This document shows positions 42,335 to 63,110 of a stretch of DNA of 64,000 nt, in pieces. The stretch is from contig JAUWNJ010000004.1 in assembly GCA_030612725.1 (NCBI GenBank), positions 1 through 64,000 of the forward strand, read 5' to 3'. Position 1 is the stretch's first letter, and every line of letters starts with the position of its first letter. Under the pieces are notes generated by a model. It was not told where the DNA came from, did not search any database, and saw nothing but the letters and a program-made list of their open reading frames with translations. Source of the DNA: Planctomycetales bacterium. Its GTDB lineage: Bacteria; Planctomycetota; Phycisphaerae; SM23-33. The position numbers and the translations under genes were made by a program.

Positions 42335-42702
42335 CCTGTACCTGTAACGGTGGGGGGGTACATTCAAGTTCATGGGGGCAGGCCACCTTGACCGCGCTGC
42401 GTTCACGTTTGCGCGCGCAAACACGAACGTAAAAATCGGGGGAACGAAAAATTCCAAAAAAACTTTTCCTAAGGCCACCAAGGACTTATGGCGTCGCTAT
42501 CCGTTTTGTGTTCGCGTTTGCGCGCGCAAACGCGAACGCAAAAGTTAATACGGAGAGAATAGGGACTAGGGACTAGGGACTTGGGACTTGGGACTTGGGA
42601 CTAGGGAACAGAAAAACAGATGAACAAAAGAAAAGAAAAACAGATGAACCAATCAACCAATCAACCAGCCGACCAGTCAACCGATTTTTTTAGGAGAAGA
42701 TT
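42335..42702. other. repeat-rich spacer with palindromes
   Basis: 368 bases without a gene. It contains an imperfect palindrome at 42400-42429, a near-perfect 40-bp palindrome at 42504-42543, TAGGGAC/TTGGGAC heptamers (42561-42607) and AACCAATC octamers (42645-42684). A ribosome binding site for the next gene is at its end. Confidence 0.85.
42504..42543. repeat. 40-bp palindrome GTTCGCGTTTGCGC|GCGCAAACGCGAAC
   Basis: The core 42510-42537 is a perfect 28-bp palindrome, extended to 40 bp with one G-T type mismatch. A related copy with one more mismatch pair lies at 42400-42429 about 80 bases upstream. The centre alternates G and C. Confidence 0.9.
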
Positions 42703-43002
42703 ATGGCAAGTTGGAAATTTCTTTATGAACTTCTACACAATGAAAACATGAGCGCGCACGAAATAGTGAACACCATCAATGTCAAGCCGTCTCGCCTGCG
42801 ACAAATGCTGCTTTCCAAGCGTCTTGCCGCCAGGCTGGCGTCTATCAAAACCGTTGCCGACAAAAAGGCAGGACGAACCGTTGTTTCGAATGTCGTACCG
42901 GCAATACACAAAATGTCCGAACTGATAGACTCGCAACGCCCCGAAACCGCACGGAAAGCATGCCTCGATATGCTCGAGGTGGCTTCAAAGAATAGGGACT
43001 AG
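42703..43002 (+). CDS. small protein with helix-turn-helix-like start
   Basis: 99 aa. AGGAGA lies seven bases before the ATG. The N-terminal 45 residues (SAHEIVNTINVKPSRLRQML) look like a small helix-turn-helix, then a helical C-terminal part. No family recognised. Its last codons and TAG stop are built from the heptamer TAGGGAC array that follows. Confidence 0.65.
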   Translation: MASWKFLYELLHNENMSAHEIVNTINVKPSRLRQMLLSKRLAARLASIKTVADKKAGRTVVSNVVPAIHKMSELIDSQRPETARKACLDMLEVASKNRD

Positions 43003-43494
43003 GGACTAGAAGATAGGGCGTAGGGCGTAGGGAACACGAAGTGTCACTACGTGAAAACAGATGAACCAATCAACCAATGAACCAGTCAACCAGTCAACCA
43101 ATCAACCAATCAACCAGTCAACCAGTCAACCAGTCAACCAGTCAACGGATTAACCGGAATACCGGAATACCGAGGAATCCGCAATCCACAATTCTCAATC
43201 CGCAATGGTGCTCTGGGCCGTTTAGGCAAGATAGGCAATGGCGGTTTTTTTAAAATGGGCGTAAAAATGACACTAAAATACGCAAATCTATGCACACCAG
43301 GGAGTTATGAATTTTGCAATTTTTCCCAATTGTTCCCAATTGTTCCCAATCGGGCCGAATCGTTCCCAATTGTTCCCAATTGTTCCGAATCGTTCCGAAT
43401 CGTTCCGAATTGTTCCGTTTCGTTCCACAAATGTTCCCCCACGTTAGTAAATCAAAGCCGACGGATAGCTATCCGTCGGTTTGGGGGCGGAGGT
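43003..43494. repeat. spacer of tandem repeats (7, 8 and 10 bp units)
   Basis: 492 bases with no gene. From left: TAGGGAC/TAGGGCG heptamers (about 42993-43033), a partial copy of the CACGTAGTGA repeat (about 43040-43054), AACCAGTC/AACCAATC octamers (43062-43146), CCGGAATA-like and AATCCGCA units (43150-43205), then a decamer array TTCCCAATTG/TTCCGAATCG (43321-43435). The array ends shortly before the lspA stop. Confidence 0.9.
43321..43435. repeat. decamer tandem repeat TTCCCAATTG
   Basis: About eleven units with a strict 10-bp period: TTCCCAATTG, TTCCCAATCG, GGCCGAATCG, TTCCGAATCG, TTCCGAATTG, TTCCGTTTCG. The last units degrade. The period equals one turn of DNA and there are no spacers. 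Confidence 0.92.
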
Positions 43495-44742: not shown

Positions 44743-44974
44743 GCTGATGTTCCTTCTAAATCCGATTCGTTTGTCCATTCATCCTGCCTGTTGGCGGATG
44801 AACCTGTAGTCGCGAGTTTCCCCAACTGGATGTTGATGCCTCTATCATGTCTCGAAAGCCCACGGCATAGCCCGGTGAATATACCCCTCTTTGGAGTTGA
44901 TGTCAAGTACTTGACTTTCTGGGCCGATGGGATATATTACGCCTTGCCCTGCGTATGCGTGGCAGAGTTATTAT

Positions 44975-45047
44975 TCCCCGATAGCTCAATTGGTAGAGCG
45001 AGCGGCTGTTAACCGCTAGGTTGTAGGTTCGAGTCCTACTCGGGGAG
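44975..45047 (+). tRNA. tRNA-Asn (anticodon GTT)
   Basis: 73 bases with a 7-bp acceptor stem (TCCCCGA with TCGGGGA), a D arm GCTC-AATTGGTA-GAGC, an anticodon stem AGCGG/CCGCT with loop CTGTTAA (anticodon GTT), and a T arm GTAGG-TTCGAGT-CCTAC. Discriminator base is G; CCA is not encoded. It stands at the left border of the accessory block. Confidence 0.96.
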
Positions 45048-45091
45048 GTCAATAAAAAACCGCTAACTTCAGCGGCCTTGCGGTTCACGCC

Positions 45092-45121
45092 AAAGCCCGG
45101 CAGCGAGAGCGCCCGGGCTTT
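45092..45121 (+). terminator. hairpin AAAGCCCGG...CCGGGCTTT
   Basis: Perfect 9-bp stem (45092-45100 with 45113-45121) around a 12-base loop, 45 bases after the tRNA. The 3' arm ends in CTTT but no long T tract follows. It probably ends the tRNA transcript. Confidence 0.7.
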
Positions 45122-45483
45122 CGTCGTATCTGCGTGCGGCCAAAGGCTTACGGCCATTCCCGCCTGCCCCGCCGCGCTCTCTGGTTCGCATTGTTTCGTT
45201 CGGGGTGCGATTGCAACCGTGGGGGTTACGTTCGCTGCCCGAACGAATCGGCCTCAAACTCTCGCGCTCTCTGTTTAACACACCCCGTCGGGTTAACGCG
45301 GCGTTGCGTTCGGGGGCCTCTGAAAACTTGGCGGAAATTGCCGGCGCGATCTTGTCAACATTTTCGTTCTTGCCGAGGAGCATCCGATGGATACTACGGC
45401 GGTGGGCCGTCTCGGTCAGCGGGGGATCGACGCAGACATCGAGACGGGCTGAGGACGGGCAGAGAAAATGCTGTTGCGTCCTC

Positions 45484-45576: not shown

Positions 45577-45801
45577 TTGAGCAATCGAATGAGTATCGGC
45601 AAGATGATCAGGGAGCTGCGAACCGCCATGGGCCTCACGCAGGAACAGTTTGCAGCCAAGGTTGGTGTGACGTTCTCAACGGTCAACCGCTGGGAAAACG
45701 GGCGAGGCAGGCCATCGCCCTTGGCTCTGCGTCGCATCGAAGAGATGCAAGCAAAATTTCGTGTGAAGTGCAAGATGCGAATACGAGGAGAAAGCGCATG
45801 A
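45577..45801 (+). CDS. XRE family transcriptional regulator
   Basis: 74 aa, TTG start at 45577 with GGGAG eight bases before it; an ATG at 45589 is possible. The helix-turn-helix GLTQEQFAAKVGVTFSTVNR is canonical, followed by WENGRGRPSPLALRRIEEM. The stop overlaps the ATG of the substrate-binding protein (ATGA, 45798-45801), so the regulator is coupled to the transporter. It likely controls the whole cluster through the inverted repeat at 45528-45542. Confidence 0.87.
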   Translation: MSNRMSIGKMIRELRTAMGLTQEQFAAKVGVTFSTVNRWENGRGRPSPLALRRIEEMQAKFRVKCKMRIRGESA

Positions 45802-46787
45802 GCAAGAAAACAATATGGGCAATCGTCGTAGCAGTCGTATGTATTGGGGTTGGTGTCTTTCTGTACGTGCGTAGCCAAGGCGATACCGGAAAGGTACGGA
45901 TAGGGATTACGCAGATCGCCACCCATCCTGGAATCGATGCGATTCGCCAAGGCTTTCTTGATGAGATGGCGCGGCTTGGCCACAAGAATGGCGTGGACGT
46001 CATCTACGACCAGACCAACGCTCAGGGCGACATGCCGACTGCCCAGAGCATCGCACAAAAGTACGTCCAGGACAAATGCGACCTCATCTTCGCTATAAGC
46101 ACCCCTTCGAGCCAAGCGGTAGCCAAAGCCATTAAAGGCACGGATATCCCTCTAGTCTTTGGAGCCGTTACAGATCCGGTTTCCGCAGGCCTCGTTGACA
46201 GTATGGACAAACCCGGGGGTAACATCACAGGTACCAGTGATCAATGGCCTGTAGATGCGCAGTTCGATCTCCTCCTGAAGCTCGTTCCTTCTGTGAAGAA
46301 GATCGGTCTCGTGTACAATCCCGGCGAGACGAACTCAGAAGCCAATGTTAAGGTAGTCGAGAGTGTCTGCAAAACCAGATCGCTGAAACTACTCAAAGTC
46401 CCTGTCGCCAGCACGAATGAAGTGCACGCTGCTGCCCAGTCTCTCGTGGGGAGATGCGATGCCTTCTACGTTCCCGCCGACAATACTGTGATCGCCGCCA
46501 TGGGAGCCATCGTGAAAGTATCCGAGCAGAACAAGATTCCGCTGCTGCCGGGTGTCTCCTCGAACGTGCAGCAAGGTGGCTTCGGCACAATCGGCCCTGA
46601 CTACTACGACGTAGGCGTGCAGTCGGCACGACTGGCCGATCAAGTCCTCAAAGGCTTGAAGGCAGGTACCATACCGGTCGCCGTAGCAGAACGGTTCGAG
46701 TACTTCTTCAACAAGCGCTCGGCGAAGGCCACCGGCGTAACGATCCCTGATGAGTTACTCAAAAAGGCTGCGAAAGTATACGAATGA
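45798..46787 (+). CDS. TrpX-type ABC substrate-binding protein
   Basis: 329 aa from the ATG at 45798, with GAGGAG upstream. An N-terminal hydrophobic helix (residues 5-22) is a signal or anchor; no lipobox Cys. The body (KVRIGITQIATHPGIDAIRQ, then ISTPSSQAVAKAIKGTDIPL and FGAVTDPVSAGLV) is the ABC_sub_bind family, whose known members take tryptophan (TrpX) or related aromatic compounds. Stop overlaps the permease start by 4 bases. Substrate here is unknown; a modified peptide is not excluded. Confidence 0.87.
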   Translation: MSKKTIWAIVVAVVCIGVGVFLYVRSQGDTGKVRIGITQIATHPGIDAIRQGFLDEMARLGHKNGVDVIYDQTNAQGDMPTAQSIAQKYVQDKCDLIFAISTPSSQAVAKAIKGTDIPLVFGAVTDPVSAGLVDSMDKPGGNITGTSDQWPVDAQFDLLLKLVPSVKKIGLVYNPGETNSEANVKVVESVCKTRSLKLLKVPVASTNEVHAAAQSLVGRCDAFYVPADNTVIAAMGAIVKVSEQNKIPLLPGVSSNVQQGGFGTIGPDYYDVGVQSARLADQVLKGLKAGTIPVAVAERFEYFFNKRSAKATGVTIPDELLKKAAKVYE

Positions 46788-47752
46788 CAATTCCAGGCAT
46801 TTTGGACACCGCTTGCCAGCAGGGTTTTCTGTACGCGATTGCCGTATTCGGCATCGTGATTACTCTGCGCATGTTGAACTGGCCTGACTTGACGGTCGAA
46901 GGCAGTTTCACTCTCGGGGCGGCTGTCCTCGCCATTACCCTCAAAAATGGATACTCGCCTTGGCTGGCGATGCTGTTGTCCGCGATGGCGGGTTTTGCCG
47001 CCGGAACAGCCACCTTTGCCCTGAACAGGAAGCTGGGCATCAGCAAGATACTGTCGGGAATTCTGGTGATGTTGATTCTCTACTCCGTGAACCTCCGCAT
47101 CATGGGACGGGCCAATATCTCGCTCCTGCGGATTCCCACGCTCTTCAGCGCATTTGACAGCAGTGGGATCGGCGACCCTGTTCGGCTTGCTGTATTCCTC
47201 GCAATCGCGGTGGCCTTCCTGCTCGGCCTGTGCTACCTGATGGCTACGCGCATTGGTCTTTTCCTTCGGGCGACAGGTGATAACGAATTCATGGTCCAAA
47301 GCCATGGTGTCAATACCAGCCTGCTGTTTCTCATCGGCCTCGGCATGAGCAATGCGCTGGTTGCTGTCTCCGGGGCGCTGGTTGCTCAGAATCAGGGCTT
47401 TGCCGACATCGGCATGGGAACCGGCATGATTATCACTGGCATCGCCGCCCTGATTATCGGCGAGACACTCTTCTCGGGGTTGGTGTCGCTGAAGAAGGCA
47501 TTTGTCCGCAGGTCCCCGGACAAGGAGTTCGCCCGCACTAAGGGTATTCATCTACTTCCATGGCAGTCGTTTGGAGAACTCTCTGCAGCGCTACTTGGTG
47601 CTTTCCTATACTTCCTGATTATTGCGATCTGCCTTCGTGTCGGGCTGGCACCGACCGATTTGAGATTGGCTACTGGTATTCTCGTCATTCTCGGCATCGC
47701 TTTCCGCCTCAAGGGCCCGACGGTGGAAACGTATATGAGAGGGAAGCTATGA
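46784..47752 (+). CDS. ABC transporter permease, TrpY-type
   Basis: 322 aa with about eight to nine transmembrane helices. The segments LNWPDLTVEGSFTLGAAVLA and ALVAVSGALVAQNQGFADIG are characteristic of permeases of the branched-chain/TrpY type (COG4120). It is coupled on both sides by ATGA overlaps (46784-46787 and 47749-47752). It forms the membrane pore with the ATPase at 47749. Confidence 0.9.
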   Translation: MTIPGILDTACQQGFLYAIAVFGIVITLRMLNWPDLTVEGSFTLGAAVLAITLKNGYSPWLAMLLSAMAGFAAGTATFALNRKLGISKILSGILVMLILYSVNLRIMGRANISLLRIPTLFSAFDSSGIGDPVRLAVFLAIAVAFLLGLCYLMATRIGLFLRATGDNEFMVQSHGVNTSLLFLIGLGMSNALVAVSGALVAQNQGFADIGMGTGMIITGIAALIIGETLFSGLVSLKKAFVRRSPDKEFARTKGIHLLPWQSFGELSAALLGAFLYFLIIAICLRVGLAPTDLRLATGILVILGIAFRLKGPTVETYMRGKL

Positions 47753-48450
47753 GTGAAGCCCCTGTCATCGAACTCTGTGACGTAACGGTCGTCTTCAACG
47801 AGGGGACGCCGAACGAAGTCGTTGCTCTTAACAGCATCTCGCTGTCCTTCGCCAAGGGCGAGACGGTTATGATAACTGGCGGAAATGGCAGTGGAAAAAC
47901 CACCTTGCTCAGGGCAATCGCCGGCACAGCACCTTTGAAGCGCGGCAGTGTGCACCTCTGTGGCCGAGATGTGACGAAGTGGGCACCCCATCGACGTGCG
48001 AGATTCATGAGTTACGTCTATCAGGATGCGACGCTCGGCACGTGTCCGAATCTGACCGTATATGAGAACCTCCGCCTGGCCACTCGCCAGCCCTGGTGGT
48101 CGCTCGCACCGCAGGCCCTGAGCATCTCCGCAAGCCAACTGGACCTCCTGGAGAAGACTGGCCTGCCCCTAGCCGCCAAGGCAGCAGCCCCTGTCAGCGT
48201 GCTCTCCGGCGGCCAGCGCCAGGCATTGTCGTTGGTCCTCGCATACAGCCAGAAACAGCCCATCGTGTTGCTCGATGAGTTCACTTCGGCCTTGGATGAA
48301 TCCGTCGAGGCGAACATGATGCGGTTCCTCCGAACTACCACAGAGGAGAACTCGCACACTACACTTGCAGTGACACATTCGCCGGAGGCTATATCTGAAA
48401 TAGCTAGCAGGCGTGTGCATCTGAATATGGGGAGAGTACGCAATGACTAA
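47749..48450 (+). CDS. ABC transporter ATP-binding protein, TrpZ-type
   Basis: 233 aa from the ATG at 47749, chosen because it overlaps the permease stop; a frame reaching back to 47560 was rejected. Walker A GGNGSGKTT, signature LSGGQRQAL, Walker B IVLLDEFTSALDE and the H-loop TLAVTHSPE are all intact. It powers the TrpY-type permease. Its stop is overlapped by the next small ORF. Confidence 0.92.
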   Translation: MSEAPVIELCDVTVVFNEGTPNEVVALNSISLSFAKGETVMITGGNGSGKTTLLRAIAGTAPLKRGSVHLCGRDVTKWAPHRRARFMSYVYQDATLGTCPNLTVYENLRLATRQPWWSLAPQALSISASQLDLLEKTGLPLAAKAAAPVSVLSGGQRQALSLVLAYSQKQPIVLLDEFTSALDESVEANMMRFLRTTTEENSHTTLAVTHSPEAISEIASRRVHLNMGRVRND

Positions 48451-48589
48451 CTTTTACTGGGAGTCTCCCGCAAAGACAACTCCTCTTGTTTCCCAAGGAT
48501 ATGTATTGTTTCTCAAATTGTCACATGGCTCGTATTGGTGCCCAGTAGACATGGCAGGGGCAGGGAAGGATGTGCTAACATGCCGGTAG
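48443..48589 (+). CDS. 48-aa ORF inside the cluster
   Basis: 48 codons (MTNFYWESPAKTTPLV at the start) with GGGGAGAG seven bases before the ATG. It overlaps the end of the ATPase gene by 8 bases and the start of the next gene by 10, so it fills the gap exactly. It contains three aromatic-rich patches and two Cys. No family recognised. It could be a third small peptide of the system or a coupling ORF. Confidence 0.5.
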   Translation: MTNFYWESPAKTTPLVSQGYVLFLKLSHGSYWCPVDMAGAGKDVLTCR

Positions 48590-49545
48590 CCAAGATTAAG
48601 CACTGGGGGCGCAAGGCCCTTCGTAGGATCGTCCCATACTTGGATCTGCTCGGATATGTAGTGATCGGGGTTGTGCTGGGTATTATTATCAACCTGTTGC
48701 AGGTGCCTTTCAAAGAGAAGCCAGCTGACTGGAAAGCTGTATTTAATATCGTCGCAAATCCTCCCGCACTCGTAGTATGTATTCTCACGACGATTGTCGG
48801 CTTAATGCATCAATTGCGGAAAGAGTCAGAAGAGAGATGGCGGAAATATTTTAAGGGGGCTGAGGTTGTGATTCAGCTAATACCTAAGATGAAGCCCCTA
48901 AACAAAGTTGCGATTGAAGTGGCACAAGGCATCTTTCTGCGAAATTCTGGTATCACAGGAGATAATGCATCACGACTCTATGCTATCGATTGGAATACCC
49001 CCGACTACTGGCTAAGAAACGACATGCTGGGGTATCTGGCCGCTCAGGCCCAGTGGCAAACAAAAGGCAATGGTCTAAGAGAAGTGCACCGACTGTTTAT
49101 CTGGGACAGAATTGATAACATTGGGGAGAAGATACTTGGAATTCACTGTCTTATGGGATTCCATACTTACGTGGCTCTAAGGAAGAGCATTGACATTGCA
49201 GGGAACGTAGAAAGGGATTTGATGCGTGATGTGCTATACTGGGACGGCACTGCAGAAGCCACACCGATAATTGTTCAGGATGTGGCAGCACATCTCCCCG
49301 GAGGCCGAATGGTTGGGTACGAATCACCTCTTACTGTCCAGGATCGGGCTGCGCTGGAGGATGATAATGACTCCAGCGAAATAACCGAATGTATGCGAGG
49401 AATTGACGTAGGCAGGATGCTATCCTATCACAAGGTCATGCAGAGATTGATGCAATCGTGTTGTCATTTTGAAGGCAACTATTTTTCTAAACCAGCGCAC
49501 AGCATTACCACTTTTCACACCAGACTTCAAAATCTGCGATCCTAA
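48580..49545 (+). CDS. two-TM protein of unknown function in RiPP-like cluster
   Basis: 321 aa from the ATG at 48580 (GGAAGGA nine bases upstream). Two transmembrane helices lie at about residues 22-42 and 57-78, then a 240-residue soluble domain, probably cytoplasmic, with Trp and His residues (IDWNTPDYWLRN, HCLMGFHTYV). No domain recognised. Its place between the transporter and the small peptides suggests a role in the same system, such as immunity, sensing or export, but this is only position. Confidence 0.72.
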   Translation: MPVAKIKHWGRKALRRIVPYLDLLGYVVIGVVLGIIINLLQVPFKEKPADWKAVFNIVANPPALVVCILTTIVGLMHQLRKESEERWRKYFKGAEVVIQLIPKMKPLNKVAIEVAQGIFLRNSGITGDNASRLYAIDWNTPDYWLRNDMLGYLAAQAQWQTKGNGLREVHRLFIWDRIDNIGEKILGIHCLMGFHTYVALRKSIDIAGNVERDLMRDVLYWDGTAEATPIIVQDVAAHLPGGRMVGYESPLTVQDRAALEDDNDSSEITECMRGIDVGRMLSYHKVMQRLMQSCCHFEGNYFSKPAHSITTFHTRLQNLRS

Positions 49546-49568
49546 AGATATAGAGAAAGGAAGAGGCT

Positions 49569-49751
49569 ATGAAATACAGACAAGGCACTGTTCTTAAACA
49601 TGCGAGGAATCCACAAGTGCCAGTAACAGCCAACTTCGCACCTCCGCCTGTACACGAAGGCGGTTATCTCAAATCGCACTACAAAGTACCACCGCATGAT
49701 ACTTGCGATGTGTACACAAAGGAGAATTTATGGAATATGCAAAAAGCGTAG
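49569..49751 (+). CDS. candidate RiPP precursor A
   Basis: 60 aa, with GGAAGAGG at a good distance before the ATG. Residues 18-27 are PVTANFAPPP, shared exactly with the next ORF. The N-terminus (MKYRQGTVLKHARNPQV) is basic and could be a leader; the C-terminal part (VHEGGYLKSHYKVPPHDTC) has Tyr, His and one Cys. It overlaps the next ORF by 22 bases. Short length, strong ribosome binding site, twin copy and the PqqD-radical SAM gene downstream all support a precursor peptide. Confidence 0.72.
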   Translation: MKYRQGTVLKHARNPQVPVTANFAPPPVHEGGYLKSHYKVPPHDTCDVYTKENLWNMQKA

Positions 49752-49891
49752 CCGTGAAGACCAACAGCAAGGATGCTCCAGTAACCGCAAACTTTGCGCC
49801 ACCGCCTTCGGATGGGAAGAAGAGCCGCAATCCAGACAAGGTACGGCCCAATAAGCAAACCGAGCCGGCAAAGCATGACGAGAATAAATAG
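49730..49891 (+). CDS. candidate RiPP precursor B
   Basis: 53 aa from the ATG at 49730, with AGGAG eight bases upstream. PVTANFAPPP is at residues 16-25, then a charged tail (SDGKKSRNPDKVRPNKQTEP). The ten shared codons differ from those of peptide A at five positions, all silent, so the peptide sequence is under selection. The 3' end overlaps the start of the radical SAM gene by 17 bases. No homologue recognised. Confidence 0.72.
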   Translation: MEYAKSVAVKTNSKDAPVTANFAPPPSDGKKSRNPDKVRPNKQTEPAKHDENK

Positions 49892-51494
49892 CAATGGTTC
49901 GCGTCCTAAACGGTTGTCCGACATGTGGCGTGTCGATCCACGGGATGGCTCCACAGCCATCCTGTCAGACGCAAGTGTTTCTTTGGAGAGGTTCCAGCTG
50001 GACGAGGTCGGAAGTTTCATATGGCGGCTTTGCGACGGAACGAGAACTATTGGTGAGATTGCCAAGGAGGTCGCTGCGGCGTGTGACGGCCCAACGCCAC
50101 CACACGAGACAATTGTCAACGACACCATACGGCTTCTTCAATCCCTTCGAAACGATGGTCTCATCGCCTGGGACGGTGATCGGTGTGTGGATGTGCTTCT
50201 CGTCGTTCCACCATGCCCATCTGTGTACTCCAAGGATGCTATCAAGACTCCTGAGTATTCAGCACCACCCCTAGGCCTTTGCTACATTGCCGCTGCCCTC
50301 CGCAAACACGGCTACACTGTAGCCATTCTGGACTTACACCAGCAAGCTGGAAAACCGGAAGATGTCGTTGAGGAGTGTCGGCGAAGGCGTCCGGCCATGG
50401 TGGGTATCACGGCCACCACGCCATCCTACCCGAATGCAGAGCGTGTCGCTCGATTCGTCAAAGCATGGGATAAATCCGTCGTGACGTTTATTGGCGGGCC
50501 ACATCCTACGGGATTGCCAGAACAATGTACTCTTTCCAATGCAATTGATTATGTCTGCATTGGAGAGGGCGAGCAGACCACACCTGAATTGGCGGATGCT
50601 GTTCTGCGCAACGGTGGCGATGTCACTGGTGTTCCGGGGCTGGCCTTCGAGTCGGATGGACAGGTAGTCTTCACTGGGCAACGTGATCGCCTTTCGGGAC
50701 TCGATGTACTTCCCTTTCCAGCCCGTGAACTGGTGGACTTGGACAATTACTCGCAGAAAGGTTCCATCGTCAGCTCTCGCGGATGTCCGATTGGATGCGA
50801 TTTCTGTTCCTGTGCTGCCATCGCCGGAAATACGTACAGGACTCATGGTATTCCATATGTAATCAGTGAGATTGAGCACATGATGAAACAGCATGACTGT
50901 CGCTTCTTCGACTTTCATGACGATACCTTCAACCTACACTCAAACCGAGTCTTCGAGTTCTGCTCGGAGTTACAGAAGCGCGAACTCGATATTGAATGGG
51001 GCTGCTTCTGCCGAGCAGCCCAGATGACGCCCGAAATGGCACAGGCCATGGTGGCCGCTGGTTGCAAGGTCATCCAGTATGGCGTTGAGGCTGGCAATGA
51101 TCGAATGCTTCAGGCTGTAGGCAAGAAGACATCTGTACAGCAAGTCGAGAACGCAGTTCAAGCCGCTGTAGCTGCTGGCATTGAACAGGTTGTATGCGGC
51201 TTCATCATCGGCCATGCTGAAGACACTGAGGAGAGCGTTCATGACACCATCAACCTTGGATTGCGTCTAAGCGAACTCGGAGCGACGCGTCTGACACTGA
51301 GCCTCCTTACTCCCTATCCGGGAACCCCGGTGTATGCAGAGCGGGAAGAAAGGGGCATCACGCTCTTAACCGACGACTGGGAGCAGTACACGTTTTCGCA
51401 CGTTGTCATCGAAACTAAACACCTGAATCGGCAGCAACTGCGGGAGCTTTACTTTGAAGGGGTCAGCAAATTCCTCAATGCTTCAGTGCGTTAG
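49875..51494 (+). CDS. PqqD/RRE - B12-binding radical SAM protein
   Basis: 539 aa from the ATG at 49875, which overlaps precursor B; the ribosome binding site is weak, so coupling is likely. Residues about 18-102 form a PqqD-like domain (SVSLERFQLDEVGSFIWRL, then GTRTIGEIAKEV), the RiPP recognition element that binds leader peptides. Residues about 107-240 are a cobalamin-binding Rossmann domain (PPLGLCYIAAALRKHGY, GGPHPTGLPEQC). The radical SAM core has C304, C308 and C311 in GCPIGCDFC. B12 radical SAM enzymes often methylate unreactive carbons. The expected substrates are the two adjacent peptides. Confidence 0.88.
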   Translation: MTRINSNGSRPKRLSDMWRVDPRDGSTAILSDASVSLERFQLDEVGSFIWRLCDGTRTIGEIAKEVAAACDGPTPPHETIVNDTIRLLQSLRNDGLIAWDGDRCVDVLLVVPPCPSVYSKDAIKTPEYSAPPLGLCYIAAALRKHGYTVAILDLHQQAGKPEDVVEECRRRRPAMVGITATTPSYPNAERVARFVKAWDKSVVTFIGGPHPTGLPEQCTLSNAIDYVCIGEGEQTTPELADAVLRNGGDVTGVPGLAFESDGQVVFTGQRDRLSGLDVLPFPARELVDLDNYSQKGSIVSSRGCPIGCDFCSCAAIAGNTYRTHGIPYVISEIEHMMKQHDCRFFDFHDDTFNLHSNRVFEFCSELQKRELDIEWGCFCRAAQMTPEMAQAMVAAGCKVIQYGVEAGNDRMLQAVGKKTSVQQVENAVQAAVAAGIEQVVCGFIIGHAEDTEESVHDTINLGLRLSELGATRLTLSLLTPYPGTPVYAEREERGITLLTDDWEQYTFSHVVIETKHLNRQQLRELYFEGVSKFLNASVR

Positions 51495-51703: not shown

Positions 51704-51828
51704 AAGCAGTCCTATTCTTCACGAACCTCTCTTTTACCCGACAGATTTCCCTCTAACCCGTAGGTTAACAGGTGGGGAGGAACCGTCGCGGGACAGTTCT
51801 TCTGCCCGAACCCTCACCAGACGGCTCG

Positions 51829-51879
51829 CCGGTCCCGAAGGGAAGGTCGCCGTGGGTGGCATTCTCACGAGGAGATGTC
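51829..51879 (+). promoter_or_regulatory. leader element 1, copy A
   Basis: CCGGTCCCGAAGGGAAGGT, then GTGGGTG after 4 bases, then CACGAGGAGA just before the ATG at 51880. The same three blocks occur in order at 58452-58578 ahead of the sigma-like gene. The last block includes the ribosome binding site. Probably a shared regulatory leader of the element. Confidence 0.6.
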
Positions 51880-52077
51880 ATGCACGCGACCATTGACCCG
51901 GCGGAGATGACGGATGAGCAGCGAACGTCTGAAGTGGCTGCCATCTTGGCGGCGGGGTTCCTGCGGCACAGGCGACAAAAACTGCCGGAACTCGCCCCAA
52001 ATAGCCCAATTGGGCGGGACATGCCGACGGATTCCGGCCCGGAAAAATCTCTCAAAAACTTTCAGGAATTGCCTTGA
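51880..52077 (+). CDS. small protein ahead of recombinase, unknown
   Basis: 65 aa from the ATG at 51880 with GAGGAGA upstream. Text such as MTDEQRTSEVAAILAAGFLR and PNSPIGRDMPTDSGPEKSL is of a type I have seen ahead of DUF2924 and recombinase genes in planctomycete elements. No domain known. A longer frame to 51772 would run through the leader element and was rejected. Confidence 0.65.
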   Translation: MHATIDPAEMTDEQRTSEVAAILAAGFLRHRRQKLPELAPNSPIGRDMPTDSGPEKSLKNFQELP

Positions 52078-52150: not shown

Positions 52151-52642
52151 ATGGACATAGCACGGGAAATTGCGGCCTTGAAGGACATGACGGTCGCACA
52201 ACTTCAGGAGCGGTACGCCGAGGTTTTCGGCGAGCCGACCCGCTCCCGGCACAAGGAGTTCATCTGGAAGCGGATCGTCTGGCGGCTTCAGGCACAGGCC
52301 GAAGGCGACCTGTCCGAGCGGGCCCGACGCCGGGCCGAAGAACTGGCGAACGACACCGATCTTCGCCTGAAACCCCCGAGGCAGCGCCCTGCTACCAAAG
52401 CAGCGGAGGGCCGCACGGCGACCGGGACCATCTCCGCACCGACCGACGAGCGCCTGCCCATGCCGAGCACGGTCCTGACGCGGCAGTACAAGGGCCGGAA
52501 GATTTGCGTGATGGTCCTCGACAACGGCTTTGAGTACAACGGCGAAGTCTATCGCAGCCTCTCGGCCGTGGCGCGGGCCGTGACCGGCGCGCACTGGAAC
52601 GGGTATCATTTCTTCGGCCTCAAGAGGAACGGTGGCCAATGA
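52151..52642 (+). CDS. DUF2924 domain protein
   Basis: 163 aa with AGGAG ahead of the ATG. The order LQERYAEVFGEPTRSRHKEF, IWRL-like WRLQAQAEG, then LTRQYKGRKICVMVLDNGFE and YRSLSAVARAVTGAHWNGYH matches DUF2924, a family nearly always found next to serine recombinases in phage-like elements. Its stop overlaps the recombinase start (ATGA, 52639-52642). Likely a DNA-binding helper of recombination; not proven. Confidence 0.9.
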   Translation: MDIAREIAALKDMTVAQLQERYAEVFGEPTRSRHKEFIWKRIVWRLQAQAEGDLSERARRRAEELANDTDLRLKPPRQRPATKAAEGRTATGTISAPTDERLPMPSTVLTRQYKGRKICVMVLDNGFEYNGEVYRSLSAVARAVTGAHWNGYHFFGLKRNGGQ

Positions 52643-54207
52643 AACAAAAGACCGACAACCCGAAGGCGACGGCCCCGACAGTCCGCTGTGCGATCTACAC
52701 GCGTAAGAGCACTGAAGAGGGCTTGGAACAGGAGTTCAACTCGCTCGACGCCCAGCGCGAGGCTGGCGAAGCATACATCGCCAGCCAGAAGTCCGCAGGA
52801 TGGGTGTGCCTGCCGGACCAATACGACGACGGTGGGTTTACCGGCGGCAACATGGACCGTCCCGCATTCCAGCGACTGATGAACGACGCGGCGGCGGGCA
52901 AAATCGACTGCGTGGTGGTCTATAAGGTGGATCGGTTCTCCCGAAGCCTGCTGGACTTTACCAGGGTCATGGCCAGATTGGAGGAGTCCGGCGTTACCTT
53001 CGTCTCGGTTACGCAACAATTCAACACGACCACATCGATGGGCCGGCTGACGCTGAACATCCTGCTGTCGTTCGCCCAGTTCGAGCGGGAGATTATCTCG
53101 GAGCGAACGCGCGATAAGATTGCCGCCGCCCGTCGCAAGGGCAAGTGGATCGGCGGCCGACCAATCCTCGGCTACGACATCGTGCCCACCGGCCGCAAGG
53201 TAACCGTCAATGAAGACGAGGCCTCCCGCGTGCGGGAGATATTCGGCCTGTACCTTGAACACCAGTCGCTGCTGGCCGTGGTTGCCGAACTGGACCGCCG
53301 CGGCTGGCGGACGAAGGAGTGGGTTACGCGGAAAGGCAAGACCTCCGGCGGCAGGCCGTTCGACAAGACCAACCTGTACCGGCTGCTCAGCAACATCGCC
53401 TACATCGGCAAGATTCGGTACAAGGACGAGGTCCACGAGGGCGAGCACGCCGGCATCGTCGATCCGGACGTTTGGCGTCGCGTGCAGGACCTGCTTCGCC
53501 GCAACGGCCGCACGGGCGGCAAAGACGTGCGGAATAAGTACGGGGCGATGCTCAAGGGCCTGCTGCGGTGCGAGCCGTGCGGCTGCGGGATGGCCCATAC
53601 CTACACGAGCAAGGGCGGCAAGCGGTACAGGTACTACGTCTGCCTGAATGCCCAGAAACGCGGCTGGCACACCTGCCCCAGCAAGGCGATTCCCGCCGGC
53701 GAGGTTGAGCGGTTTGTCGTAGACCGCATCCGCTGCGTCGGTGCCGATGCGGGCCTGGTGGCCGAGTCCCTGCAACACGCCCGCCAGCAGAGCACCGAGT
53801 CGATCCGCAAACTCCAGGAGGAACGGCAATCGCTGCACCGCGAGTTGAAGCGGCACAACGCCGAGGTCCGCCGGCTGATCGCCGGAACCGGCAGCGAAAT
53901 GACGACCGCCAGGCTCGCCGACCTTCAGGAGCGCATCCGATTGGCCGAGCGGCGGGCCACGCAGGTGCGGGAGGAGATCATCGCGCTGGAGCGGACGCTT
54001 GTGGACGAGCGGGAACTGGCCCGGGCGTTTTCGCTGTTCGACCCGGTGTGGGATTCGCTTTCGCCGCGCGAGCAGGCACGCGTCATCCATCTGCTGGTCG
54101 AACGGGTCGGCTACGACGGCGAGAAGGGAACGGTGTCCGTGACCTTCCGGCCAAGCGGCATCAAGGCGTTGGCGCAGGAAGTCGCACGTAACGGAAAGGA
54201 GACATGA
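52639..54207 (+). CDS. large serine recombinase
   Basis: 522 aa. Resolvase domain with catalytic Ser24 (YTRKSTEEG) and the active-site arginine region VVYKVDRFSRS, then the Recombinase domain, a zinc ribbon (LRCEPCGCGM, then YVCLNAQKRGWHTCPSK) and a C-terminal coiled coil. Large serine integrases move elements between attB and attP in one direction unless helped by a directionality factor. Coupled to the DUF2924 gene before it and to the small gene after it. It is the probable integrase of the accessory block. Confidence 0.95.
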   Translation: MKQKTDNPKATAPTVRCAIYTRKSTEEGLEQEFNSLDAQREAGEAYIASQKSAGWVCLPDQYDDGGFTGGNMDRPAFQRLMNDAAAGKIDCVVVYKVDRFSRSLLDFTRVMARLEESGVTFVSVTQQFNTTTSMGRLTLNILLSFAQFEREIISERTRDKIAAARRKGKWIGGRPILGYDIVPTGRKVTVNEDEASRVREIFGLYLEHQSLLAVVAELDRRGWRTKEWVTRKGKTSGGRPFDKTNLYRLLSNIAYIGKIRYKDEVHEGEHAGIVDPDVWRRVQDLLRRNGRTGGKDVRNKYGAMLKGLLRCEPCGCGMAHTYTSKGGKRYRYYVCLNAQKRGWHTCPSKAIPAGEVERFVVDRIRCVGADAGLVAESLQHARQQSTESIRKLQEERQSLHRELKRHNAEVRRLIAGTGSEMTTARLADLQERIRLAERRATQVREEIIALERTLVDERELARAFSLFDPVWDSLSPREQARVIHLLVERVGYDGEKGTVSVTFRPSGIKALAQEVARNGKET

Positions 54208-54620
54208 TCGTGGAAGGCGATTCCGGACTGACCATCGAGTGTAAGGTGAAGTTCACGACGCTTCGGCGAGGCCGCAAACGCATGGCCCGCGACGAAGATA
54301 AAGTCAAGTCGCCTGTAGGCGAAGGCTCTGTACCCCGACTCTCGCGGCTGATGGCGCTGGCGCTGAGGTTCGAGAAACTGGTACAGAATGGCCACATGGC
54401 CAGTTATGCCGACCTTGCCCGTCTCGGCTACATTACCCGCGCCCGCATGACGCAGATCACGAACCTGCTGCTACTCGCTCCGGACATCCAGGAAGACATC
54501 CTCTTTCTGCCCTGCACCACGACCGGCCGCGACCCCATCTGCGAACGCCATGTCCGCATCATCACCGCCGTCCCAGACTGGCGCAAGCAGCGGCGGCTGT
54601 GGCACGAGCTTATAGTCTGA
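54204..54620 (+). CDS. small protein coupled to recombinase, probable HTH
   Basis: 138 aa, ATG overlapping the recombinase stop (54204-54207). The middle (HMASYADLARLGYITRARMT) looks like a helix-turn-helix. Proteins of this kind follow recombinase genes in planctomycete and proteobacterial elements. It could act as a directionality factor, an inference from position only. Confidence 0.7.
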   Translation: MIVEGDSGLTIECKVKFTTLRRGRKRMARDEDKVKSPVGEGSVPRLSRLMALALRFEKLVQNGHMASYADLARLGYITRARMTQITNLLLLAPDIQEDILFLPCTTTGRDPICERHVRIITAVPDWRKQRRLWHELIV

Positions 54621-54770
54621 CCCGAATTCAATCATCCGACTCATCACTTGCTCTCTTTGTAATCCGTCGTCACCGCCGAGGTATCGCGCACATGGTTCTT
54701 TCATACATCACATTGCGTGGGTATCATAGATGTTCATTCGCGCAGTAAAATTGCATTGGGAGAACAGGTC

Positions 54771-55322
54771 ATGGGCGAAACAACAGATTTCAGAACTGAT
54801 TACTTCATCCAAACTAGGCGCGAGATCGATACCGAGAAGCACTCACGCGATCAAATCCTCAACTTTGCCGTGGTTGTCTTAGGCGCTATAGCGTTCGCTA
54901 TATTTCGAAGCAGTGAGGCTAATGTGTTCCTGACAAAGCCCTTCGCTATCATTCCAGAGTGTTCCGCGCTCCTTATGATCAGCGCTCTATTCTGGGTAAG
55001 GCGCAAGAAACTGGAGCAGATTGCTGACCGCTGGTTTGTCCTGCATAATCTGGCCGAGGAACTGTTCGGAGAAGAACGCGCCAAGAGCCTGTTGGAAGGG
55101 ATGGTTTGCAAGCAGTTGACCAGACGGCGATATATCAAGAAGGACTTGTTCTTAAACTTCGCACTCTCGTCACCGATCTACACGCTTCTATTCATCCACT
55201 TGTCGGGATTCTGGACCGAGTCGATCTGGCAGGCGGTGGCATCACTAGCCGTCGTCGTGTTGCACGTTGTCCTGTCAGCATACATCCTGGGCCGTCGTTT
55301 TCGCAGGCCATCGCCGAGGTGA
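54771..55322 (+). CDS. four-TM protein, unknown
   Basis: 183 aa from the ATG at 54771. Helices at about residues 29-47, 60-76, 130-145 and 152-172 enclose a cytoplasmic middle rich in Arg, Lys and Glu. A SLATT-like arrangement (membrane effector with a helical soluble part) is possible but not proven. It is the first gene after the recombinase triad, with its own spacer, and so is probably cargo. Confidence 0.6.
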   Translation: MGETTDFRTDYFIQTRREIDTEKHSRDQILNFAVVVLGAIAFAIFRSSEANVFLTKPFAIIPECSALLMISALFWVRRKKLEQIADRWFVLHNLAEELFGEERAKSLLEGMVCKQLTRRRYIKKDLFLNFALSSPIYTLLFIHLSGFWTESIWQAVASLAVVVLHVVLSAYILGRRFRRPSPR

Positions 55323-55537
55323 GATAGAGGCGGTTACCGGATCGGCAAACGTCTTCGTCAACATCAGCCGGATTTGCGTTAGATATTGCTTCGCAATGAA
55401 TTACCAAATTAACCACCCCACCGAGACGCGTCTTGCATCTTGCCCCATGCATGGACAGACGGTATACTGGGTTGCGAACCGGTCTGGCAACAGGATTGCC
55501 GACCAAGAGACAAAGGTTCATGGAAGGACTATGTTCC

Positions 55538-56770
55538 ATGACAGATCGAGATTCCGACCCCGTTAAACGACAATTCTGGGAAAACGAGCTGGAAACGAGC
55601 ATTACGCGAGCCCTGCTCGATGCAGGTAATTCGGACTTCATGAGGGGCTGGGTCGCGTCCCGAACCGGCCGTCAGTTGGAGGTGCTCTGCCGAAATCTGA
55701 GGCTGGAGGGACTCAGTAAAGTTCGGGAGCGGAGAGCCGCCCTCGAAGGTTCTAACAGTCAGTTGGTCCCGTACTATCTTGTAGACCGATTTTCCTATCG
55801 CAAGGGCAAGTTTGCGGTTGCGGACCTCGCGGCCAGCGCCCTGACCGAAGACGTCCTCGATCTTTGCTGTGGCAAAGACGGTAGCCATGACACCAAAGCC
55901 CTCCTTTATGCACTGTATCATGCAAACCCGGACAATCTCCGAATGCTCTTTCATCTGGACAAGATTCATAAGTCGGGCTTTGCCAGGATGACGCTCAAGC
56001 AAAAGGTTCGCAGGCCTGAGAAAACGTTCGAGGAATTCCTTAAACGCAAGAAAGCGGTAGAAATCCTGGTGGCCTTTGACAGGGTCAAGCGGGACCGGCG
56101 TACCAGTCAGCTCAAGAACATCGTCCTTCACAATCACCATCACTTAGTATTCATTCGCCGGCCCGAACGCCCTCAGTACATACTGCGGGATGGCAATATT
56201 CAGCACGGTCACCGGGCGGAATGGATCATCCTGGACTTTGCAGACAACGCGCGGCGTGTGAACATCTCCTCTATAAGCGTCGATGTGCCCTTGGAAATTG
56301 CAAATGCTTTGGCATCGGCGTATTTAGGCAAGGATGTCGAGTATGAAAACGAGAGCCAGATTACCTACGCCAAGCAGATCGAACAGTTCCTCGATCAACT
56401 TAAGAATGGAACGTGCGAGGACCTGAGCCTGGCAGATCTCGAAGTCCACAGTTCACCGCTGGACGGGGTTGACTTGCGGTTGTCTCATGAAAACACGGAC
56501 GTGATGGTCAGGGCCATTGCCAGTATCGAGAGGGACCACGGCAGCCTTTCCTCGGACATTGAGCAGATCGAAAAGGTCAAGGTCGAGTACAACAACAAGC
56601 GGATTGATATCCGCTTCGAGAAGCAGGACACCGGCCCGGACGAGTTTATAGTGCGGTATTTCGACCACCGGTTAAACGCCTCTGCACGGAAACAATTCGA
56701 AGACTTCATGAGGGAGACACATGGTATCCCGATCCTGTCGACAGAGAAAAGGTACAAGCGTCGCTCCTGA
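55538..56770 (+). CDS. unknown protein, first gene of a two-gene module
   Basis: 410 aa from the ATG at 55538, which has GGAAGGA nine bases upstream; a frame from 55433 was rejected. The sequence is soluble and mixed alpha/beta; no known motif could be read. Charged stretches (FLKRKKAVEILVAFDRVKRD) and a short His cluster (NHHHL) stand out. It overlaps the next gene by 50 bases, so the two are made together. Position as cargo beside the recombinase suggests a defence, TA or regulatory role, but nothing in the sequence proves it. Confidence 0.68.
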   Translation: MTDRDSDPVKRQFWENELETSITRALLDAGNSDFMRGWVASRTGRQLEVLCRNLRLEGLSKVRERRAALEGSNSQLVPYYLVDRFSYRKGKFAVADLAASALTEDVLDLCCGKDGSHDTKALLYALYHANPDNLRMLFHLDKIHKSGFARMTLKQKVRRPEKTFEEFLKRKKAVEILVAFDRVKRDRRTSQLKNIVLHNHHHLVFIRRPERPQYILRDGNIQHGHRAEWIILDFADNARRVNISSISVDVPLEIANALASAYLGKDVEYENESQITYAKQIEQFLDQLKNGTCEDLSLADLEVHSSPLDGVDLRLSHENTDVMVRAIASIERDHGSLSSDIEQIEKVKVEYNNKRIDIRFEKQDTGPDEFIVRYFDHRLNASARKQFEDFMRETHGIPILSTEKRYKRRS

Positions 56771-57890
56771 ACATGCGGCGGTCCTATTGCGGGACGGATT
56801 CAAGACGTCCACTCCTTCAGTGGAACTCGTCAAGGCTGCGGAGGAGATTCGGGCCTGGGGGCTCATCAAATTCCGGATTCAGGAATACGTGGTCTGTTCC
56901 GAACCACGAGATAGGGACTTCCCGCCGAAGAACCGTCACTGCCGGGGACGGATATACCTGAACGACGGTCTTGATGAAGACGGGGATGACTTCCGTTGCC
57001 CGAAATGCGAACGCGTGGTCTTGCCCTATCGGTACCGGAAGATTCGTCACGAGGAGATTCAGGTACACGTCTGCCGGGACGGCATTATCTCCTATGTCCA
57101 TGACAGACTAAAGAAACTGAAGACAACCGTGCGAGACCTCGGCAACGGCGCGTTTCGTCTCGATGATTTCGGGCGCATGGGCATCGTCGTCTGTGTAATC
57201 GACTACTGCGACGACGAGAGTATCAATTCCCGTGACTGGGCCGCTGAAAATCCTGTCTGCTACATCACAGTGAACCCGCGTCTCTTTGAGGGACGATTCC
57301 TGAATGAGGACTGGATTTGCCGGGTGTCGCTTGTGGACCTGATCGCCGAACGGGTTGATCTTCGCAAAACGATTACGGAGATTGCCGATGCACCGGTGCC
57401 TCAGACCTTTAATAAGGTCTCTATTCCTGTCTGCGCCAAAGGTCATGTCCTGATTCAGCCTGTGGAAACCCCACATCCCGACCGGCTGTTCTTTGTCGAA
57501 CTGGATGAGAAGACTGTCCGCGTTAACGGAGAGATTGTCGTCAACCCACAAGCTGGACCTCGCCTCATGGTGTTTCGCATCCTGTGGGAACGTTTCCTGG
57601 AGGACATCGAGTCCGGCCTTCCCGCCAGCGAATTTCGCGCTGCAAATCTGCGAGAGTTACTGAATCTGATGGAGGAAGCCAGCAAGAGGTATGATGACGA
57701 GACGACGTTACGGAAAGTCATCAACAACCTGCAAGGCGACATCGAGAAAGCGGTGAAGCGAAAACTGGGACTGCCCATCGGTCGGGAAGATATCGTCCAG
57801 ACCTGCCGTATGACCAGCCAGACCGATGCAGACGGTGGTTACCGAATCAACCCGTTTTCCGTGGCCGTCCGGCCCGTCCAAGCCCGATAA
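56721..57890 (+). CDS. zinc-ribbon protein with winged-helix-like C-terminus
   Basis: 389 aa, with GAGGGAGA just before the ATG. A zinc ribbon near residues 60-110 has HC and CPKC pairs (KNRHCRG, FRCPKCER). The last 80 residues (TLRKVINNLQGDIEKAVKRK, then GGYRINPF) resemble the OmpR-type winged helix, whose wing ends in a GYRI/L motif. Together this suggests a DNA-binding regulator or sensor for the module with the preceding gene. The transcript ends at the terminator 57934-57965. Confidence 0.7.
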   Translation: MVSRSCRQRKGTSVAPEHAAVLLRDGFKTSTPSVELVKAAEEIRAWGLIKFRIQEYVVCSEPRDRDFPPKNRHCRGRIYLNDGLDEDGDDFRCPKCERVVLPYRYRKIRHEEIQVHVCRDGIISYVHDRLKKLKTTVRDLGNGAFRLDDFGRMGIVVCVIDYCDDESINSRDWAAENPVCYITVNPRLFEGRFLNEDWICRVSLVDLIAERVDLRKTITEIADAPVPQTFNKVSIPVCAKGHVLIQPVETPHPDRLFFVELDEKTVRVNGEIVVNPQAGPRLMVFRILWERFLEDIESGLPASEFRAANLRELLNLMEEASKRYDDETTLRKVINNLQGDIEKAVKRKLGLPIGREDIVQTCRMTSQTDADGGYRINPFSVAVRPVQAR

Positions 57891-57896
57891 TCTGAA

Positions 57897-58008
57897 ACCT
57901 GTCTCAACAATCTTCGACCTGTCTCCTGCCCGCCGGTCCGATGCCTGAAAATCGGGCCGTTTTTATTCCCGCTGACCTTCAACCTGTCTCTTCTATTTTT
58001 GACCTGTC
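57897..58008. promoter_or_regulatory. four ACCTGTC repeats, 20 bp apart in pairs
   Basis: ACCTGTCTC at 57897-57905, 57917-57925 and 57982-57990, and ACCTGTC at 58002-58008. Within each pair the spacing is exactly 20 bases (two helical turns), and the pairs flank the terminator. This looks like a binding site array for a dimeric or tandem DNA-binding protein. The winged-helix-like protein just upstream is a candidate. Confidence 0.72.
57934..57965 (+). terminator. intrinsic terminator of the two-gene module
   Basis: Stem CGGTCCGAT (57934-57942) with ATCGGGCCG (57951-57959), one G-T pair, loop of 8, then TTTTTATT. A standard Rho-independent terminator 44 bases past the stop. Confidence 0.85.
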
Positions 58009-58098
58009 CTGCAAACTCCCCGTCATTTGTTTGAGAATTGCTCCTGTGAAAGCGGTCGCGTGGATCGCACATAACCCCTTATTTCAAAGGAGCATGAG

Positions 58099-58419
58099 AT
58101 GAACAAGAAGACACTGTCGGAACCACGTAGGCGACTGGTCGAGTTGATGCAGACCTTGGACTTCGGAAGGATTCATGGTCTCGCCGTTCGGAACGGCGAG
58201 CCGGACTTCGGCCGGGGTTTCCGGGCCGTGCGAACGGTCAAGATGGCTGGCGATAACAGCCCAGGACCGGAAAACTACAGCGAGGATTTCGTCCTCAAGC
58301 ACGAGGTCATCAATTTACTCGAGCATTTCGACCGCCTCGGTGACGGCATTATGCGCCTCATCGAGGTCAAGCACGGCCTGCCGTTTATCATCGAGATTGA
58401 AGAAGATTATCAGGCGTAG
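58099..58419 (+). CDS. small protein of phage-like module, unknown
   Basis: 106 aa with AAAGGAG ahead of the ATG. Contains a conserved-looking middle (SEDFVLKHEVINLLEHFDRL) and an acidic C-terminus (IIEIEEDYQA). No family recognised. It opens the replication-type gene run. Confidence 0.7.
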   Translation: MNKKTLSEPRRRLVELMQTLDFGRIHGLAVRNGEPDFGRGFRAVRTVKMAGDNSPGPENYSEDFVLKHEVINLLEHFDRLGDGIMRLIEVKHGLPFIIEIEEDYQA

Positions 58420-58451
58420 GGCCTGAGTTAACCAGGACACAGCACAACTAA

Positions 58452-58583
58452 CCGGTCCCGAGGGGAAGGTGTTGTGGGTGTCGCCGCGAACCGGCGAACT
58501 CGCAACGCCTTCTCTTTTTGGCCCTACGCCCGCCCGGATTCCGTCGACACCCACGCGTCCTCCTCGGCCACGAGGAGACAGCA
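58452..58583 (+). promoter_or_regulatory. leader element 1, copy B
   Basis: CCGGTCCCGAGGGGAAGGT (58452-58470), GTGGGTG (58474-58480) and CACGAGGAGA (58569-58578) match in order the blocks at 51829-51875, with a longer gap before the last. It lies directly upstream of the sigma-like gene. Confidence 0.6.
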
Positions 58584-59159
58584 ATGAAGTTCAACGGAAT
58601 CGACGAGTACGCACGGAAATGCATCACCAACAAGGCCCGCCAACTTATCGGCAAATACGGCTTCACCGAATCAGACCGCGAGGATATCGAGCAGGAACTT
58701 GTTGTCGATCTGCTTCAGCGCCTGCCGAAGTTCGACCCGAGCCGGGCAAAACGTAACACATTCATCGTTAGGCTCATCGAACACAAGGTTGCTGACATCA
58801 TAGAGTACCGCAAGGCCGCCAAGCGGGATTACCGCAAGCGGCGCAATGGTGTAGACCTCGACCTGATCGACGGTGATGACTACCGGGTCAGGATGGGCAG
58901 AACTTCCCGGTCGGCACTGGAACTGGTCGATCTTGTCGCAGACCTGGAGGCTGCGGAGAAGAAACTACCCGAAAACCTTCGTGAGTTCAGCGACCGTCTG
59001 CGGACGGAGACGATCCTAGAGATTTCCCACGCGACGGGTATCCCCCGCACAACACTTTACGAATCAATCGAGAAACTCCGGCGGCACTTCGAGCAGGCCG
59101 GACTACGCGATTATTTACCTCACCGTCGCCGACACAATCGCAGGTCTACCGGTAGGTAA
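58584..59159 (+). CDS. sigma-70-like RNA polymerase factor
   Basis: 191 aa from the ATG at 58584, with GAGGAGA upstream. A region 2-like part (FDPSRAKRNTFIVRLIEHKV) and a region 4-like helix-turn-helix (ISHATGIPRTTLYESIEKL) give the ECF-like build. Phage elements use such factors to switch their own genes. The shared leader ahead of this gene and of the 65-aa gene may be a target. Confidence 0.78.
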   Translation: MKFNGIDEYARKCITNKARQLIGKYGFTESDREDIEQELVVDLLQRLPKFDPSRAKRNTFIVRLIEHKVADIIEYRKAAKRDYRKRRNGVDLDLIDGDDYRVRMGRTSRSALELVDLVADLEAAEKKLPENLREFSDRLRTETILEISHATGIPRTTLYESIEKLRRHFEQAGLRDYLPHRRRHNRRSTGR

Positions 59160-59186
59160 TAGGTGTGGGGGGATAGACGAACCGTC
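59152..59186 (+). promoter_or_regulatory. leader element 2, copy B
   Basis: GTAGGTAATAGGTGTGGGGG and a nearby ACCGTC match GTAGGTTAACAGGTGGGGAG and AACCGTC at 51760-51787 (copy A). It overlaps the stop of the sigma-like gene and leads to the ATG at 59199. Confidence 0.5.
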
Positions 59187-59198
59187 AGAGGAGATCAC

Positions 59199-59501
59199 AT
59201 GAAAAAGAGAATCGTCATTTTCAGATTCGCCGACGCAGTCCGGTTGAAGGACGCCGAGGAGTCGCTGCTGCTGGCACTTCTGGCCGCCGAAGGGCTGTAC
59301 GGCCGGTCGCGCGTCCGGCTTGAGACAGGCTACTTCATGGACCGGCGGAAACGGGCGTGCGCCATCAAAGCCTGCAACGAAGTTGGCCGTGACGTCGCCC
59401 GAATCTTCGCCGGATTCTGCGTCCGCGAGTTCGGCGAAGACGCCTTTGAGATTGAACGTGTCTGCGGCGCGTCCGCCGCCAGAAAGGAGAAGCATTCATG
59501 A
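59199..59501 (+). CDS. small protein of phage-like module, unknown
   Basis: 100 aa from the ATG at 59199 with GAGGAGA upstream. Mixed alpha/beta (RIVIFRFADAVRLKDAEESL), no known domain. Its stop overlaps the start of the ATPase gene (ATGA, 59498-59501). Confidence 0.75.
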   Translation: MKKRIVIFRFADAVRLKDAEESLLLALLAAEGLYGRSRVRLETGYFMDRRKRACAIKACNEVGRDVARIFAGFCVREFGEDAFEIERVCGASAARKEKHS

Positions 59502-61104: not shown

Positions 61105-61117
61105 AGCGATTGATGAA

Positions 61118-61182: not shown

Positions 61183-61209
61183 ATGAGTGGTAATAGACCA
61201 GGAAAAAAC

Positions 61210-63103: not shown

Positions 63104-63110
63104 GCAGAGC

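Follow-up and report, generated by a model that had tools for sequence, protein, structure and literature searches.

The question raised by this locus is whether two small ORFs sharing the decapeptide PVTANFAPPP encode substrates of the radical SAM enzyme whose gene lies immediately downstream. The window analysed is a stretch of 64,000 nt from a Planctomycetales bacterium (contig JAUWNJ010000004.1, positions 1–64,000). An earlier note had described a co-directional operon of nine mostly overlapping genes, and this was borne out: all of the parts are present on the plus strand at 45577–51494, and the Pfam domains agree (Table 1). Adjacent genes overlap by 4 nt at the regulator/binding protein, binding protein/permease and permease/ATPase junctions, by 8 nt between the ATPase gene and the 48-aa ORF, by 10 nt between that ORF and the membrane protein gene, by 22 nt between the two peptide genes, and by 17 nt between the second peptide gene and the enzyme gene, while the sole gap in the chain (23 nt) separates the membrane protein gene from peptide 1. 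Searches of Pfam and NCBIfam revealed no family above cut-off for either peptide, the 48-aa ORF or the membrane protein. A scan of the operon for known RNA families gave none except tRNA, and promoter and terminator scans stayed at chance level. An anti-phage defence identity was also considered for the operon and rejected, as defence models gave generic domain matches only.

Table 1. Features of the operon and its surroundings (positions are those of the window).
Feature	Position	Strand	Remarks
tRNA-Asn (gtt)	44974..45048	+	ARAGORN; likely insertion point of the operon-carrying element
Left flank segment, 274 nt	45045..45318		94% identical in congeneric genome G003
XRE-type regulator, 74 aa	45577..45801	+	TTG start, or ATG at 45589; HTH_3 59.1 bits
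ABC_sub_bind substrate-binding protein, membrane-anchored, TrpX-like	45798..46787	+	ABC_sub_bind (PF04392) 271.6 bits
ABC permease	46784..47752	+	BPD_transp_2 (PF02653) 76.9 bits
ABC ATPase	47749..48450	+	ABC_tran (PF00005) 94.8 bits
48-aa ORF	48443..48589	+	both neighbours overlapped
Orphan membrane protein, 321 aa	48580..49545	+	N-terminal pair of hydrophobic segments, then soluble part
Peptide 1, 60 aa	49569..49751	+	PVTANFAPPP = residues 18–27
Peptide 2, 53 aa	49730..49891	+	PVTANFAPPP = residues 17–26
PqqD–B12-binding–radical SAM fusion, 539 aa	49875..51494	+	CxxxCxxC intact; ATG at 49875
Right flank segment, 129 nt	51756..51884		95% identical in G003
Large serine recombinase / phage integrase	52639..54207	+	PHROG 95 'integrase', 426.8 bits; adjoins operon

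The two small ORFs encode the peptides MKYRQGTVLKHARNPQVPVTANFAPPPVHEGGYLKSHYKVPPHDTCDVYTKENLWNMQKA and MEYAKSVAVKTNSKDAPVTANFAPPPSDGKKSRNPDKVRPNKQTEPAKHDENK, and their starts are preceded by the ribosome-binding sites AAGGAAGAGG and AAAGGAG. Local alignment of the peptides gave a score of 68, compared with 23.5 ± 4.6 for shuffled sequences, and none of the 5000 shuffles reached this value. The N-terminal flanks are weakly alike (142 of 5000 shuffles were as good), the C-terminal tails are not alike (885 of 5000), and the tail of peptide 2 is hydrophilic and of low complexity. The codons of the two PVTANFAPPP copies differ five times (ACA/ACC, GCC/GCA, TTC/TTT, GCA/GCG and CCT/CCA), in each case synonymously; as a random substitution in them would be synonymous in about 29% of cases, this outcome has a probability of roughly 0.002. 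Thus, PVTANFAPPP is kept by selection at the protein level. Most simply, the copies diverged long ago while the decapeptide stayed fixed, as would be expected of a functional contact surface. The 48-aa ORF has no similarity to the two peptides. As the earlier note supposed, the peptide family is an unrecognised one, being absent from the family libraries and the literature searched. Both small ORFs are short, precursor-like genes adjoining a putative modifying enzyme, as in RiPP clusters, in which short precursors sit beside the enzyme (PMC7470986; PMC12710340).

In the fusion protein, a PqqD domain (PF05402; 48.5 bits, cut-off 23.4) is followed by B12-binding (PF02310; 101.6 bits) and Radical_SAM (PF04055; 77.8 bits) domains. 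By its Pfam score, the first of these is an RRE/PqqD-type domain as found in RiPP clusters, where such domains bind leader peptides (PMC7470986; PMC12710340), and it is the feature predicted to tie the enzyme to the peptides. Single-sequence structure prediction for the PqqD part gave a fold of moderate confidence (pLDDT 63), which had no significant match to structures in Foldseek. Apart from this domain, the genome gave a single PqqD match, a weak N-terminal one (24.9 bits) in a 728-aa protein (L089 4983–7169). Alignment with 20 B12-binding radical SAM relatives revealed that the three radical SAM cysteines and the other invariant residues are kept in the enzyme, and with a B12-binding domain and a CxxxCxxC radical SAM domain it belongs to the broad B12-binding radical SAM group. 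Its best NCBIfam scores, all below cut-off, are to BchE (170.8 bits), ApyD (NF050148; 156.2 against a cut-off of 750), PhpK (148.1) and HpnJ (144.7), while the rSAM_ocin_1 C-methyltransferase model (TIGR03975) gave 87.9 bits against a cut-off of 281.85. The best solved relative is AprD4, an apramycin enzyme; AprD4-type relatives keep the fold and leave cobalamin unused. Methylation of carbon, to which the earlier note had pointed, was not established, as the catalytic part falls within a broad BchE/HpnJ/AprD4-like group that takes in non-methylating enzymes. Since the enzyme scores below every named family cut-off and the nearest group is mixed, methylation is one option among several.

The transporter, with an ABC_sub_bind binding protein and a matching permease and ATPase, is of the TrpX type, although the binding protein scores 293.4 bits against the cut-off of 390 of the NCBIfam TrpX tryptophan equivalog. 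The closest solved relatives of the binding protein are CD0873, VC_1101 and SP1069 (structures 6hni, 3lkv and 3lft), the ligands of which are free tyrosine, phenylalanine and tryptophan, respectively (PMC6816091). The proposal that the transporter moves the product was thus not upheld, the operon transporter being a binding-protein-dependent importer with relatives of this kind. In the alignment, the specificity positions Glu263 and Tyr279 of CD0873 correspond to Val253 and Tyr269 in the operon protein (positions counted by hand). With valine, a partner for a hydroxyl group is lost, and the bulky tyrosine is still present, which suggests as ligand an amino acid that is Phe-like or otherwise hydrophobic. 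A homologue of the importer on a Variovorax plasmid lies beside hppD and a homogentisate dioxygenase gene. Within the class the importer is rare, being found in one other genome in 327 at E ≤ 1e-40. Domain searches of the operon recognised neither a peptidase nor an exporter; not all RiPP clusters carry them. The predicted structure of the membrane protein was unusable (pLDDT 39).

The search for relatives was extended to samples of the phylum (392 genomes) and of its class (327 genomes), and to larger collections. The genome itself has the two copies of PVTANFAPPP and no others, and the single additional match among the 392 phylum genomes is in a different frame of a GC-rich region. An exact scan of genome contigs of 84,980 species, which substituted relatives would escape, gave a single match; it was rejected, being antisense and out of frame inside a UDP-glucose-dehydrogenase-like gene. 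The matches outside the genome, in viral contigs and in G241 and JAEEML010000154 (L032), are out of frame, in unrelated frames or lacking the full motif. Overall, no plausible PVTANFAPPP gene product was found elsewhere in about 85,000 genomes, the 392 phylum genomes and the viral contigs. The top matches of the enzyme, among 60 relatives and the 392 phylum genomes, show about 30–37% identity and align from about residue 100, and no PqqD domain was seen in them when the open frames were inspected. The N-terminal half of the enzyme matched no PqqD-bearing protein in the 327 class genomes, and a second example of the three-domain layout was not found in the genomes searched. When the surroundings of six of the better matches to the enzyme were inspected by eye, neither a PqqD gene nor an importer nor a peptide with the motif was recognised. 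A match on a Rhizobium plasmid was set aside, as it belongs to a different radical SAM cluster. In 392 genomes the membrane protein matched only itself, and searches of plasmids and viral contigs gave no match to it. With no second copy found, the system is a good prediction from one case and does not demonstrate a new class.

The surroundings of the operon look like those of a mobile element. Similarity (82%) to the congeneric genome G002 stops at 45049, one base past the tRNA-Asn gene. The two flank segments recur in another congeneric genome, G003 (L073 9951–10224 and 1155–1283), in the same order and orientation and about 8.7 kb apart, and they may represent the ends of an exchangeable cassette. 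The G003 genes between them differ from the operon and read like hydrogenase/NADH-dehydrogenase subunits. Downstream of the operon (52151–64000), phage-like genes code for the integrase, a Sak4-like annealing protein and a phage-type helicase. The position between tRNA-Asn and the phage integrase is likely a cargo slot, and the recurrence of the flanks around other genes suggests, from two genomes, that the operon occupies an exchangeable cargo interval of the element. Past the window (L069–L070), a gene for a tape-measure-like protein and restriction-modification-like genes were observed. A 68-nt copy of 45067–45134 (93% identical) lies about 72.8 kb downstream (C36:117824–117890; G000, L071) and is possibly an attachment-site remnant. 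Positions 42500–43490 belong to a dispersed repeat family that also occurs in three congeneric genomes (about 70–98% identical); a 3-kb query holding this region gave 175 matches, its pieces matching many sites across the genome.

Based on these observations, the two small proteins are probably bound by the RRE-type PqqD domain and serve as substrates of the radical enzyme. Translation of the two peptides would be coupled to that of the enzyme, whose N-terminal PqqD domain would hold them through their shared N-terminal part containing PVTANFAPPP; the B12-binding/radical SAM part would then act on the peptides by a radical reaction. The decapeptide may be either the recognition strand bound by PqqD or the stretch that is modified: conservation of the N-terminal part next to variable tails fits a recognition role, and the identity of the decapeptide over all ten residues, the PPP among them, suits a modified core just as well. 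The importer would serve for the uptake of a free amino acid, Phe-like and aromatic or else hydrophobic, or of a product similar to such an amino acid, and not for export. For processing, release or sensing, the orphan membrane protein is the sole candidate. The idea that the peptides are substrates is supported by the PqqD domain fused to a radical SAM domain with an intact motif and by two related, constrained ORFs directly upstream, the layout expected of a RiPP-type cluster. On conservation of the peptides near related enzymes, by which the earlier note would have judged them, the searches gave neither a second copy of the motif nor another enzyme of this layout to compare. The single instance, the absence of PqqD from the enzyme relatives found, the lack of a recognisable protease or exporter, and the moderate PqqD fold all count against the explanation. 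As a testable prediction from a single instance, the reading of the locus as a probable RiPP-type operon for peptide modification, borne as cargo at the margin of an integrated, phage-like element, is sound.

Should the radical SAM enzyme instead use a small molecule, perhaps the imported amino acid, the PqqD domain would be vestigial or a protein contact, and the small ORFs accessory or regulatory. The families nearest to its catalytic half (BchE, HpnJ, PhpK and AprD4) are mostly small-molecule enzymes, and the free Tyr, Phe or Trp bound by the solved relatives of the importer, as well as Val253 and Tyr269, agree with such a role. This explanation is nevertheless unlikely, as it accounts neither for a fused PqqD domain well above cut-off nor for the constraint on two peptides encoded in overlap with the enzyme gene. 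The importer, together with the hydrophilic, low-complexity tail of peptide 2, would also suit peptides acting as a scaffold or accessory subunit held by PqqD, with the chemistry happening on an amino acid that is joined to them or positioned next to them; the domain search of the operon revealed no enzyme that attaches amino acids to peptides, and we regard this arrangement as very improbable.

Slightly less improbable than a scaffold, though still far from likely, is a regulatory role, in which ribosomes pausing over the APPP that closes the conserved block would control translation of the next gene. This ending is common to both ORFs, RAPP-like sequences stall ribosomes (PMC12992588), and in a predicted fold (z −1.87) CUCC, within the proline codons of the first ORF, pairs with GGAG, the ribosome-binding site of the second, but the corresponding fold ahead of the enzyme gene does not stand out (z 0.46). 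Moreover, known RAPP-type motifs begin with R and are C-terminal in small secreted or membrane proteins (PMC12992588), whereas here F replaces R, the motif lies mid-peptide, 26–33 codons before the stop, and no signal or membrane segment was seen by inspection; the PqqD domain would also be left unexplained. Least probable of all is that the ORFs are non-functional and the shared stretch a product of chance or DNA-level duplication. They are indeed short and without relatives elsewhere, but the exclusively synonymous differences, an alignment above all 5000 shuffles, the good ribosome-binding sites and the overlaps speak against it.

An operon in genome G519 (L088 316–5994, minus strand), the one other class genome with this importer type, has a comparable arrangement: genes for a binding protein, permease, ATPase and a membrane protein (P0010) with two hydrophobic segments are followed in order by a Cupin_8 gene (40.5 bits), an ORF of 72 aa, which is preceded by AAGGAAG and overlaps both neighbours, and a methyltransferase gene. 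It is possibly a separate peptide-modification cluster. The likeness, with other enzymes and another peptide, is suggestive, a lead and no proof of one family. The binding proteins of the two operons share 32% identity, and each is closer to plasmid homologues than to the other. Homology of P0010 to the membrane protein of the present operon (P0004) was undetectable (E 0.65), and similarity of the 72-aa peptide (P0012) to P0002 of the present operon was not significant. It is a rather doubtful extension that both operons belong to a family of mobile-element peptide systems, with a fixed front of importer and two-segment membrane protein, through which the product would be sensed or imported, and swappable modifying sets: the PqqD–B12–radical SAM enzyme with two PVTANFAPPP peptides here, and a Cupin_8 oxygenase, 72-aa peptide and methyltransferase in G519.

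If the peptides are indeed substrates, the cargo slot of this phage-like element would contain a precursor of an unclassified type together with a B12 radical SAM enzyme fused to an RRE, and peptide modification would be paired with amino-acid import; we know of no RiPP class with such a pairing. With one enzyme and two short peptides, the system is compact enough for its substrate and reaction to be tested directly.

Among known systems, RAPP-type arrest peptides resemble the operon in having a small ORF with an xAPP(P) motif upstream of a gene; the operon peptides differ from them in the residue at the R position, in the non-C-terminal location of the motif and in carrying no localisation signal, and fall outside that type. 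RRE (PqqD-like)-dependent RiPP clusters with radical SAM enzymes likewise have short peptide genes beside a PqqD-fused radical SAM enzyme. Compared with these, the operon has a precursor of no identifiable class, no recognised protease or exporter, an enzyme of the B12-binding type and a predicted modification. ApyD and rSAM_ocin_1 share the B12-binding and radical SAM core and are associated with small peptides, while the operon enzyme, in a comparison of the enzymes themselves, bears an N-terminal PqqD domain and scores far below their cut-offs. Enzymes of the BchE/HpnJ/PhpK/AprD4 type are the best matches of the catalytic half, from which the operon enzyme is distinguished by sub-threshold scores, the extra PqqD domain and the linked peptide genes. 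The TrpX, CD0873 and VC_1101 importers agree with that of the operon in the families and the order of their three components (binding protein, permease, ATPase), but the operon importer has Val/Tyr at the specificity positions, in place of Glu/Tyr, Ala/Tyr or Ala/Gln, and sits together with peptides and a radical enzyme.
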